Below are positions 45,421-49,152 of a stretch of 64,000 bases of DNA, in pieces. The stretch comes from Devosia litorisediminis (lineage in GTDB: Bacteria > Pseudomonadota > Alphaproteobacteria > Rhizobiales > Devosiaceae), in NCBI RefSeq assembly GCF_018334155.1, contig NZ_JAGXTP010000001.1, positions 1,116,001-1,180,000 of the forward strand. The letters run 5' to 3'. Both the position numbers and the translations under genes were made by a program. Numbering within the stretch: the first letter of the stretch is position 1; each line of letters starts with the position of its first letter. The notes under the pieces are model-generated. The model made no database searches. It saw only the letters and a list, made by a program, of their open reading frames with translations, and was not told where the DNA came from.

Positions 45421-45436
45421 TTAACAGTCTGCTAAC
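45421..45436 (+). promoter_or_regulatory. Near-consensus CtrA-like box upstream of the 32-residue ORF
   Basis: TTAA-CAGTCTG-CTAAC differs by one base from TTAA-N7-TTAAC. It lies about 40 bases upstream of the -35 element of the LexA-like promoter. A single mismatch makes it only suggestive. Confidence 0.3.
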
Positions 45437-45474
45437 CAGTGACCGCCAATCCCCGCTGTTCCCGCTAGTCACAC

Positions 45475-45503
45475 TCGACAGGAACAAACATCGAACGTAT
45501 AAG
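45475..45503 (+). promoter_or_regulatory. Sigma-70 promoter with a LexA-like direct repeat in its spacer
   Basis: TCGACA (45475-45480), exactly 17 bases, and TATAAG (45498-45503) make a strong promoter. The spacer contains GAAC-N7-GAAC (45482-45485 and 45493-45496), the reverse complement of the GTTC-N7-GTTC box bound by alphaproteobacterial LexA; a third GAAC follows at 45503-45506. A repressor bound here would directly block polymerase. Confidence 0.6.
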
Positions 45504-45530
45504 AACATTATAGCAACACGGGAGACGACG

Positions 45531-45629
45531 ATGCTCACTTTCATCAAGGACTTTGCCGCATTCGTTACGCTGGGCGCCTTCACGATTGGTTCGCTCACCT
45601 GGATGGATATCATTGCCCGACTCGTGTGA
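45531..45629 (+). CDS. 32-residue predicted membrane microprotein under a LexA-like promoter
   Basis: ATG 45531 is preceded by GGGAG and starts a 33-codon ORF. The product begins MLTFIKDFAAFVTLGAFTIG and ends WMDIIARLV: a short amphipathic start, one membrane helix (about 8-25) and a short tail. It begins about 20 bases after the predicted transcription start. Size, topology and SOS-like control recall Caulobacter SidA, a 29-residue SOS-induced division inhibitor, but I see no sequence proof of homology. It is 67 bases upstream of dnaE on the same strand. Confidence 0.6.
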   Translation: MLTFIKDFAAFVTLGAFTIGSLTWMDIIARLV

Positions 45630-45651
45630 CGCTGGCTGTGGATTGCGGCAT

Positions 45652-45677
45652 CGGGGCGGTATGATAATCGCCCCGAG
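45652..45677 (+). repeat. Hairpin between the microprotein and dnaE
   Basis: TCGGGGCG and CGCCCCGA are perfect eight-base inverted arms around GTATGATAAT. No U-run follows, so it would not fully separate the microprotein from dnaE; it may trim expression or stabilise the small mRNA. Confidence 0.5.
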
Positions 45678-45696: not shown

Positions 45697-48600
45697 ATGC
45701 ACGGCCCCGGTTTTATCCATCTCCACGTTCACTCTGCCTATTCCCTGCTTGAGGGTGCGCTGCAGCTTGAGACCATTCTCAAACTCGCGGCCGCCGATGA
45801 GCAGCCGGCGCTGGGTATTGCCGATACCGGCAATCTGTTCGGGGCGTTGGAGTTTTCCGAAAAAGCCAGCAAGAAGGGCATTCAGCCGCTGGTCGGGGTT
45901 GAACTGGCGATTGATTTTGCGGCCAGCGAAGAGCGCGTCAACGAACGCGGCCACATCGCCTGGAGCGGCAAGTCCAGCGTGGTGCTGCTGGCCCAGAGCG
46001 AGGTGGGTTTCGGCAATCTGTCGCGACTGGTTTCGCAGTCCTATATTGAAGGCGACGGGGGCACGGCGCGGGCACAACTGGACTGGCTGTCGCGGGAGCG
46101 GCTCGAGGGGCTGATCTGTCTCAGCGGCGGCCCTGAGGGGGCCATCGACATGGCCTTCGCCCAGGGGCAGGATGCCAATGCGATCAAGCGGCTGGACCGT
46201 CTGGCGGAGCTGTTTGGCGAGCGCTTCTACATCGAATTGCAGCGCCATGGCCGGGTGCAGGAAGCAGCCGTGGAGCCGCGGCTGGTGGATTACGCCTACC
46301 GCAAGGGCATTCCTCTGGTCGCCACTAATGAGCCCTTCTTCAAATCGGCCAAGGAATTTGAGGCGCATGATGCGCTGCTGGCGATAGCCGGCGGCACCGT
46401 GCTGGCCCAGACCGAGCGGCGCAAGCTGAACGATCAGTACTATTTCAAGACCCGGGCCGAGATGGAGGCGCTGTTCTCCGATCTGCCCGAGGCGCTGAAC
46501 TCCACGGTCGAGATCGCCCAGCGCGTGTCCTACCGACCGCAGACCCGCAAGCCCATCCTGCCCAAATTCGCCGCAGCGCCAGATCTGAGCGATGAAGACG
46601 CCGTGGCGGCCGAGGCCGACGCGCTGCGCGCCATGGCAGAGGAGGGGCTGCGCAACCGCCTTGAAGCCACAGGTCCGGCACCCGGCAAGACCGAGCAGGA
46701 ATACTGGGAGCGACTGGAGTTCGAACTCGACATCATCCAGTCGATGAAGTTTCCGGGCTACTTCCTGATCGTGGCCGATTTCATTCGCTGGTCAAAATCG
46801 CAGGGCATTCCGGTCGGTCCCGGCCGTGGTTCGGGTGCTGGCTCGCTGGTGGCTTATGCCACCACCATTACCGACCTTGATCCGCTGGCCTACAATCTGC
46901 TGTTCGAACGCTTCCTGAACCCAGAACGCGTTTCGATGCCCGACTTTGACATCGATTTCTGTCAGGATCGGCGCGAAGAAGTCATTCGCTACGTGCAGCG
47001 CAAATACGGCACCGAACAGGTCAGTCAGATCATCACCTTCGGTACGCTGCAGGCGCGCGCTGTGCTGCGCGACGTCGGGCGCGTGCTGCAAATGCCCTAT
47101 GGCCAGGTGGACCGCATCTGCAAGATGGTGCCCGCCAATCCGGCCGACCCCTGGTCGATCGAGCGCACCATGACCGAGGTCCCCGAATTCAAGGCGCTGA
47201 GCGAAGAAGACGAAACCGTGGCCGATCTGGTGGCCATCGGCAAGAATCTCGAAGGTCTGTTCCGCCACGCCTCGACCCACGCTGCCGGTATCATCATTGG
47301 TGACCGGCCGCTGCATGATCTGGCGCCGCTTTATCGCGATCCGCGCTCGGACATGCCGGTGTGCCAGTACAATATGAAGTGGAGCGAGGCCGCCGGCCTG
47401 GTCAAGTTCGACTTTCTGGGCCTCAAGACACTGACCACGGTGCAGTACGCGGTCAACATGGTCAATCTGGATGGCGGCAGCTTCCGGATTGAAGATATCC
47501 CGATCAACGACAAGCCGACCTACGAGCTGTATGCGCGGGGCGACACGTTTGGCGTGTTCCAGGTTGAGGGCGCTGGCATGCGTCGGGCGCTGCTCGACAT
47601 GAAGCCCGACCGGTTCGAGGACATCATCGCTATCGTGGCGTTGTATCGTCCCGGTCCAATGGACAATATTCCGCTGTTCTGTGACCGCAAGCATGGTCGC
47701 GAGGAGGTGGAATACCCGCATCCAGAGCTGTCCAAGGTGCTCGACGAGACCTATGGCATTATCGTCTATCAGGAACAGGTGATGCAGATTGCGCAGCTGC
47801 TCAGCGGTTACTCGCTGGGTGAAGCCGATATGCTGCGCCGCGCCATGGGCAAGAAGATCAAGGCTGAGATGGACGCGCAGCGCGAGCGTTTCCGCGAAGG
47901 GGCGATCAAGCACGGTCTCAAGCAGTCGCTCGCCGACACAATTTTTGACCTGCTCGCCAAGTTCGCCAATTACGGCTTCAACAAGAGCCATGCCGCAACC
48001 TACGCCCTGGTGAGCTACCAGACCGCCTATCTCAAGGCGCATTATCCGCACGAGTTCCTGGCAGCGTCGATGACGCTGGATATGGGCAATACCGATAAGC
48101 TGGCCGAGTTCCGCAGCGAAGCCAAGCGCAACAAGATCGAACTCGTACCGCCCTGCGTGAACCGCTCACAGGTGGTGTTCTCGGTCAAGGACAAGGCCAT
48201 TCTTTATGGCCTGTGCGCGGTCAAGGGCGTCGGTCGCCAGGTGGCCGAGCACATCATCGAGGTGCGTGGTGATACCCCGTTCAAGGACCTGGGTGACTTT
48301 GCTCGCCGGGTTGATCCGCGCGTGCTGTCCAAGCGGACACTGGAAACGCTGGCGAACGCCGGTGCGTTTGATGATATCGTGCCGCGGCGCGAAGTGGCCT
48401 TTGCGGCCATCGAAACCGTGATGGGCATGGCCCACACGCTGACCGCGGAGCGCAATGAAGGTCAGTGGAACATGTTCGACGCTGGCGAGCCTGAAACGCT
48501 GCGCCTGCCCGAAGGGGTGCCGAACTGGTCCACAACCGAACGTGCCGACCGTGAGCTTTCGGCCTTTGGCTTCCATCTGTCGGCCCACCCGCTCGATGCC

Positions 48601-49152
48601 TATTCCGACATGTTCGACAAGCTGCGGGTGCAGCGTTGGGGTGATTTTGAACGGGCCGTCAAGGATGGCGCCTCGGCGGGACGTCTGGCCGGGACCATTA
48701 GCGGTCGGCAGGATCGCCGGACCCGCAAGGGAACGCCGATGATGATCCTGACGCTGTCCGATCAGTCGGGCAGCTATGAAGTGATCGCGTTTTCCGAGCA
48801 GATTACCCAGTTCGGTGCCATTCTGCAGCCGGGCAAATCCGTGATCCTGCAGGTTGGCGCGGATGAGCGCGCTGAGGGCGTGAGCCTGCGGCTGCTGTCG
48901 GCCGAGCCCATTGATGGCATTGCCGAAAAGATCGACCGGCGCCTGACCGTGTTTGCTGCCAGTGCTGCGCCCCTGGGATCTATCAGTGCCCAGCTCAAGC
49001 GGGGCGGGGAGGGATCTGTCAATTTCGTGGTGATCCGCGATGGTGGTGCCCGTGAGTACGAGATCGAACTGCCCGGCACCTACCTGCTGACAACGGCCGT
49101 CGCCGGGGGGATCAAGGCGCTTGAAGGCGTGACGGATGTCCGCTTCCACTGA
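45697..49152 (+). CDS. dnaE: DNA polymerase III alpha subunit (replicative DnaE1)
   Basis: This is the catalytic subunit of the replicative polymerase. The 1151-residue protein has the N-terminal PHP domain (FIHLHVHSAYSLLEGALQLE), the palm with GPGRGSGAGSLVAYA and the catalytic aspartates in MPDFDIDFCQDRREEV, fingers and helix-hairpin-helix region (LYGLCAVKGVGRQVAEHI), and a C-terminal OB fold (AGTISGRQDRRTRKGTPMMI). Length and PHP sequence indicate DnaE1, not the shorter SOS polymerase DnaE2. Confidence 0.97.
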   Translation: MHGPGFIHLHVHSAYSLLEGALQLETILKLAAADEQPALGIADTGNLFGALEFSEKASKKGIQPLVGVELAIDFAASEERVNERGHIAWSGKSSVVLLAQSEVGFGNLSRLVSQSYIEGDGGTARAQLDWLSRERLEGLICLSGGPEGAIDMAFAQGQDANAIKRLDRLAELFGERFYIELQRHGRVQEAAVEPRLVDYAYRKGIPLVATNEPFFKSAKEFEAHDALLAIAGGTVLAQTERRKLNDQYYFKTRAEMEALFSDLPEALNSTVEIAQRVSYRPQTRKPILPKFAAAPDLSDEDAVAAEADALRAMAEEGLRNRLEATGPAPGKTEQEYWERLEFELDIIQSMKFPGYFLIVADFIRWSKSQGIPVGPGRGSGAGSLVAYATTITDLDPLAYNLLFERFLNPERVSMPDFDIDFCQDRREEVIRYVQRKYGTEQVSQIITFGTLQARAVLRDVGRVLQMPYGQVDRICKMVPANPADPWSIERTMTEVPEFKALSEEDETVADLVAIGKNLEGLFRHASTHAAGIIIGDRPLHDLAPLYRDPRSDMPVCQYNMKWSEAAGLVKFDFLGLKTLTTVQYAVNMVNLDGGSFRIEDIPINDKPTYELYARGDTFGVFQVEGAGMRRALLDMKPDRFEDIIAIVALYRPGPMDNIPLFCDRKHGREEVEYPHPELSKVLDETYGIIVYQEQVMQIAQLLSGYSLGEADMLRRAMGKKIKAEMDAQRERFREGAIKHGLKQSLADTIFDLLAKFANYGFNKSHAATYALVSYQTAYLKAHYPHEFLAASMTLDMGNTDKLAEFRSEAKRNKIELVPPCVNRSQVVFSVKDKAILYGLCAVKGVGRQVAEHIIEVRGDTPFKDLGDFARRVDPRVLSKRTLETLANAGAFDDIVPRREVAFAAIETVMGMAHTLTAERNEGQWNMFDAGEPETLRLPEGVPNWSTTERADRELSAFGFHLSAHPLDAYSDMFDKLRVQRWGDFERAVKDGASAGRLAGTISGRQDRRTRKGTPMMILTLSDQSGSYEVIAFSEQITQFGAILQPGKSVILQVGADERAEGVSLRLLSAEPIDGIAEKIDRRLTVFAASAAPLGSISAQLKRGGEGSVNFVVIRDGGAREYEIELPGTYLLTTAVAGGIKALEGVTDVRFH

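Follow-up and report, generated by a model that had tools for sequence, protein, structure and literature searches.

The window, which is the whole stretch of 64,000 nucleotides of Devosia litorisediminis DNA that was analysed, carries on its + strand a short open reading frame (ORF) with its own promoter, followed by dnaE. The short ORF (45531..45629) starts with an ATG at 45531 and ends with a TGA at 45627-45629. Its 32 residues contain one hydrophobic stretch, as read from the sequence, and it is annotated here as a putative SidA-like membrane peptide with a single helix. The gene for the DNA polymerase III alpha subunit, dnaE (45697..49152, +), was identified by its Pfam domains and begins 67 nt after the peptide stop; its product has 79% identity to DnaE of Devosia sp. 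BIN32, the closest named match found, and nearer records may be absent. Upstream of the peptide ORF we found, all on the + strand, a Shine-Dalgarno-like GGGAG (45520..45524), a -10 element TATAAG (45498..45503) recognized from the sequence and the genus alignment, and a -35 element TCGACA (45475..45480), the two promoter elements being separated by 17 nt. This spacer is filled by a LexA-type box of the form GAAC-N7-GAAC (box 1, GAACAAACATCGAAC, 45482..45496, +), and a candidate second box with one mismatch, GAAC-N7-CAAC (45503..45517, +), overlaps the -10 element and the start region. A CtrA-like element, TTAA-N7-CTAA, kept in the genus, lies farther upstream (45421..45435, +). The earlier note on this DNA had described the promoter, the repeat in its spacer, the GGGAG and the 32-codon ORF, and all of them were found in place. 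A further genus-conserved stretch (45440-45474, TCCCCG and its neighbours) separates the CtrA-like element from the -35 element.

The LexA box of Caulobacter is GTTCN7GTTC according to the accessible part of one report (PMC9578287), and this alphaproteobacterial motif, GTTC-N7-GTTC on either strand, is present at the window promoter. A short motif may also arise by chance, and a random motif before a random ORF has to be weighed at this point. Both strands of the window together hold four matches to GAAC-N7-GAAC versus 1.44 expected, in line with the earlier note, which had warned of about two chance matches per 64 kb. Since 4 of 100 shuffled sequences also reach four matches, the bare motif is weak evidence. 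The other three matches are inside longer ORFs (46906, in dnaE; 16161; 60203), and the whole genome has 116 exact matches versus 60 for a reversed control. Being frequent enough for chance, the motif needs comparison between genomes to carry weight. Among genus members with an intact ORF, the best box in the 75 nt 5' of the ATG is exact in 29/36 and has one mismatch in 7/36, whereas control windows of 75 nt farther upstream on the same strand are exact in 0/659 and have one mismatch in 13/659. This conservation raises the motif above chance. A fortuitous occurrence is rejected by the conservation tests on the box, the ORF and the class-wide dnaE upstream regions; with ORF, box and neighbour conserved in genus, family and class, we give it next to no credence. 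The earlier note had regarded loss of the repeat from a conserved promoter as evidence against LexA control; such loss was found in part, as seven of the 36 genus members have no exact box, and all seven retain a box with a single mismatch.

The genus promoters contain four GAAC-like words whose starts are 11, 10 and 11 nt apart (the alignment leaves out L044 and L045, and the codon, box and CtrA counts leave out L045). The first word is GAAC in 36/36, the second in 28/36 and the third in 34/36, while the fourth is CAAC or AAAC in 32/36 and GAAC in 1/36. This pattern usually yields one exact box plus a second one with one mismatch; boxes with no more than one mismatch average 2.0 per promoter. 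In the 36 promoters the hexamer ending 2 nt before the box is always xTvGAC-like (CTGGAC 17, CTAGAC 7, CTCGAC 4, ATAGAC 4, GTAGAC 2, GTGGAC 2). Some distant loci (L120, L134, L135, L138, L139, L149 and L291) have, near the GAAC-N7-GAAC of the peptide gene, another exact box that is inverted (GTTC-N7-GTTC).

The near-CtrA box that the earlier note placed upstream proved to be real. A YTAA-N7-YTAA match occurs 60-180 nt before the ATG in 35/36 genus members versus 0/385 control windows, the last match per locus being CTAA-N7-CTAA in 28, CTAA-N7-TTAA in 4 and TTAA-N7-CTAA in 3. The CtrA operator consensus is TTAA-N7-TTAA, so that the dominant CTAA forms make the element a variant of it. Its conservation in the promoter sequences suggests that the SOS gene may be gated by the cell cycle as well. 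In other genera of the family (L095-L098, L101, L110, L111, L113-L115) the word GATTC, presumably a methylation-type word of the GANTC kind, recurs upstream of the promoter.

The same genome offers further places where the motif can be compared, and the earlier note had proposed lexA, recA and imuB. Two exact boxes precede the lexA gene (identified by TIGR00498 with 177.7 bits), at 62 and 37 nt from its ATG. One exact box was found at a RecA-like ORF, and another box lies about 0.8 kb ahead of the IMS domain of a gene that reads as ImuB-like. Other ORFs behind boxes we take to be ssb, uvrA, rmuC and radical-SAM repair-like, these names and that of the RecA-like ORF being given by eye with no tool. 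A further box, GTTCGCTGTTTGTTC, is located about 100 nt before an ORF that, by eye, we take to be radA-like (G000:C1:1995628, L058). The boxes at lexA, the RecA-like ORF and the other repair-like ORFs fit the motif being the SOS operator of the organism. Together with its conservation before the peptide ORF, putative SOS control of the peptide gene is well supported by comparison of these sequences.

Conservation of the ORF itself was also found. A DNA search of 61 genomes recovered the region in 37/37 genomes of the genus and in 0/24 from other families, with the ORF intact in 36/37; the earlier note had proposed to look for box and ORF in related genomes. Over 35 comparisons, intact genus copies differ from the window by 166/41/421 bases at codon positions 1/2/3, a bias indicating that the ORF evolves as a protein. 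In the remaining genus member (L045; G024, about 1540-2800) the ORF breaks off after its seventh codon, where an insert of about 1.27 kb carrying terminal inverted repeats interrupts it, and the promoter is intact; this natural disruption implies that the peptide is dispensable in that member. A peptide profile matched in 124/136 family genomes at E<=1, covering 13/16 genera, which rules out an ORF restricted to the genus; the best E exceeds 0.01 in seven of these 124 genomes, three of which (G146, G152 and G147; L129-L131) also have the box and dnaE. Of 46 loci from other family genera, 37 have an exact best box and 9 one that deviates at a single position.

The downstream neighbour is constant as well. 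For the window peptide and its near relatives, dnaE follows in 95/97 loci, a set that includes six weak matches from two further families (f19 and f41), and the exceptions are L098, where the contig ends, and L099. The f19 and f41 loci (L134-L139) were chosen from many weak matches because the same short ORF was repeated within one family, and 6/6 have an exact box. This linkage, with only 67 nt between both genes in the window, raises the main rival to a checkpoint function: the ORF may be an upstream ORF in the dnaE transcript, a leader whose boxes raise DNA polymerase III after damage and whose product itself does little. A strong hairpin in the peptide-dnaE gap of the window (45651-45676, -33.5 kcal/mol, with 5/200 shuffles as good) would suit a leader; it is not the same in relatives, and we rejected it as a conserved regulator. 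Ribosome profiling combined with proteogenomics has reported a novel small ORF, sORF25, at the same place in the 5'-UTR of Sinorhizobium meliloti dnaE1; it belongs to eleven 5'-UTR sORFs that, in the authors' view, could partly serve as uORFs (PMC10117765, accessible part). Against a leader stand the selection on amino acids seen in the codon positions and the putative hydrophobic helix, as well as SidA, whose gene occupies the same place and which works as a protein according to the available part of its description (PMC4211646). On balance we consider the leader unlikely, and read-through from the SOS promoter may still raise dnaE besides the role of the peptide. The likeness to sORF25 is one of position; it suggests translation at the orthologous place, and in Neorhizobium a matching ORF stands at the sORF25 place before dnaE. 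In the accessible main text of PMC10117765 the terms "SOS" and "SidA" have 0 occurrences.

The reading that we prefer, a membrane peptide of the SidA type, required a closer comparison with SidA, the peptide by which Caulobacter arrests cell division upon DNA damage. SidA has one hydrophobic helix and the window peptide one hydrophobic stretch, a putative helix. Both have a LexA-type box just upstream and dnaE downstream, and SidA and the window family have in common a basic-acidic pair at residues 6-7, Ala10 and Phe17, at equal distance from the Met. Their sizes are similar, 29 residues in SidA and 32 in the window peptide, which is longer by three. They differ in the Trp, which is residue 19 in SidA and residue 24 in the window peptide, where Asp26 follows. 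The NCBIfam model of SidA, NF033228, has a cut-off of 35 bits and exceeds it in 1/387 genomes of a class draw. In the family of that genome, which we call Caulobacteraceae from its SidA and the named loci L328 and L330, the model is above cut-off in 55/89 genomes and matches in 78/89 at E<=0.1. Here dnaE is found in 30/30 SidA loci. The SidA ORF was read in 28 of these, where its start lies 121 to 226 nt ahead of dnaE; the other two gave no ORF in the searched range. Position before dnaE as a criterion for SidA comes from the loci read here and is not a published definition. An exact box is present in the 75 nt before the ATG of 19/28 SidA ORFs, and a SidA-like ORF also precedes dnaE in the two named Caulobacter loci, where the boxes have one mismatch.

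At the profile level, hhalign of the window family (set A3) against SidA (set A2) gave 87.1%, over 18 columns of the N-terminal half only. A second set of 19 other Hyphomicrobiales peptides (A4), a subset picked by hand from box-following ORFs before dnaE together with the f19 and f41 loci, gave 90.5% against SidA, and the two Hyphomicrobiales sets, A3 and A4, gave 97.6% against each other; of 200 column shuffles of SidA, none was as good against either set. A profile built from SidA only reaches E<0.01 in 7/939 dnaE-upstream ORFs (nested starts counted), five of them behind exact boxes and two from Neorhizobium, with L290 being one of the seven. The SidA profile scores at least 5 bits in 28/76 distinct family peptides, 9/760 shuffles and 4/361 background hydrophobic ORFs, two of these four coming from SidA-model loci and one of them being a real SidA. 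The window peptide by itself has 0.5 bits with the SidA-only profile and no match to NF033228 at E<=10; the best family member has 15.1 bits, below the 35-bit cut-off, and this model matches 1/30 family peptides (E 0.016) and 1/19 A4 peptides (E 0.0062). A direct family label was also sought for the window peptide and given up, as no Pfam model matched and no NCBIfam model was above cut-off. The homology with SidA is therefore one that holds at the level of the family profile and not for the window sequence alone, and the claim is drawn from place, promoter and profile together rather than from a single sequence. Judged from these features, the window ORF is probably a homologue of SidA at the same chromosomal place and with the same promoter type. 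The earlier note had proposed an analogue of SidA under LexA; this is borne out, and the place before dnaE, the promoter type and the profile similarity extend it to a probable homologue.

A small SOS-induced membrane peptide may have another target; it could depolarise the membrane, as E. coli TisB and DinQ do, or resemble YmiC. TisB is a LexA-controlled single-helix peptide with a different role. YmiC belongs to enterobacteria as a small membrane protein of unknown role, and its NCBIfam model (NF041484) gives weak profile matches to the family peptides that are commoner than those of SidA (8/30 vs 1/30, best E 9e-4); with the window peptide it scores 12.9 bits, the cut-off being 42. DinQ likewise is a LexA-controlled single-helix peptide of similar size with another role (PMC3567139, accessible part). 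However, the place before dnaE is common with SidA, and the profile similarity is to SidA and not to column-shuffled SidA, so that we regard a different target as improbable. Outside this class, YneA, ChiZ and SosA of Gram-positives and mycobacteria are work-alikes, being SOS-induced division inhibitors that span the membrane once. FtsW is the target of YneA, and low-confidence models also put ChiZ and SosA on FtsW (PMC13396833, accessible part). YneA and ChiZ each have a LysM domain outside the cell, SosA has an extended helix, and no kinship of the window peptide with them is claimed.

The arrangement is not confined to Devosia. Across the Alphaproteobacteria, GAAC-N7-GAAC on the + strand 20-500 nt before dnaE occurs in 22/79 named loci (a set that includes Devosia and Caulobacteraceae), 17/40 further Hyphomicrobiales families and 3/40 other families of the class. 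In the same three sets, eleven permuted words on the same strand occur in 0-3/79, 0/40 and 0/40, GAAC at other spacings in 0-4/79, 0-3/40 and 0-1/40, and the box in the opposite orientation in 8/79, 1/40 and 3/40. The counts are not independent, because several loci come from related genomes; the named and unnamed dnaE sets contain close relatives and partly overlap, L319 and L279 being apparently the same contig stretch. A profile made from the window family and SidA (A3 plus A2) was run on ATG ORFs of 24-60 codons before dnaE outside both families; of 180 loci sampled, 173 had such ORFs, 677 distinct ones in all. E<0.01 was reached by 22/677 ORFs, and 20/22 of these are behind an exact box versus 41/655 of the others (Fisher p 1e-20, a nominal value given the related genomes among the matches), or 19/21 without L290, a family-like genome that was part of A3 and hence of the profile. 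The two matches without an exact box are Neorhizobium, each with two one-mismatch boxes. At E<1 a matching ORF is found in 18/74 named loci outside Devosia and Caulobacteraceae, L290 included, among them Bradyrhizobium, Ancylobacter, Roseibium, Ahrensia, Aureimonas, Maricaulis and PS1-clade genomes. No exact box with such an ORF behind it was found in the named Rhodobacterales-like, Rhodospirillales-like, Mesorhizobium and Bartonella loci, and Commensalibacter has a box before dnaE and no such ORF.

From this distribution we lean towards the view that a LexA-controlled inhibitor of the SidA type directly before dnaE is an old module across much of the Alphaproteobacteria (Hyphomicrobiales, Caulobacteraceae and several further groups). 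With products of about 26-47 residues that change rapidly and escape every annotation model, it would have been overlooked. The module of Devosia and its relatives would also include the CtrA-type element, and DNA damage and cell-cycle signals would meet at one promoter. We found no report of a class-wide pairing of sidA and dnaE in the literature searched, which comprised accessible parts of PMC4211646, PMC12700426, PMC4117421, PMC9578287, PMC13384398, PMC13396833 and PMC10117765 among others, the original 2011 description of SidA lying outside the search.

Taking these lines together, the peptide is likely to be an SOS checkpoint peptide of the SidA type in a longer, Hyphomicrobiales form. 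We infer LexA binding, induction by damage, membrane insertion, the divisome target and with it the checkpoint function. Without damage, LexA would occupy one or two direct-repeat boxes, located between -35 and -10 and around the start, and would block RNA polymerase. Upon damage, RecA on single-stranded DNA would promote self-cleavage of LexA, the promoter would open and the 32-residue inner-membrane helix would be made. By homology with Caulobacter SidA, the peptide would then bind the late divisome (FtsW and FtsN) and keep septal wall synthesis inactive until repair is done. In Caulobacter, according to the available part of PMC12700426, constitutive sidA expression makes cells without lexA filament; the same source counts sidA among the early SOS genes and ranks its promoter above that of uvrA in strength. 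Low-confidence models place SidA on TM7 of FtsW (PMC13396833, accessible part).

A common view is that SOS division inhibitors arose separately in individual lineages and that SidA belongs to Caulobacter. The conserved place before dnaE together with the conserved operator may offer a route to such peptides where sequence search fails, and in Bradyrhizobium, Ancylobacter, Roseibium, Devosia and others it points to a candidate checkpoint after DNA damage. For sORF25 of S. meliloti it would also suggest a role open to testing. Furthermore, these peptides vary naturally in helix length and in where the Trp and Asp stand, which may serve as a data set for how they hold the FtsW/FtsI/FtsN complex.
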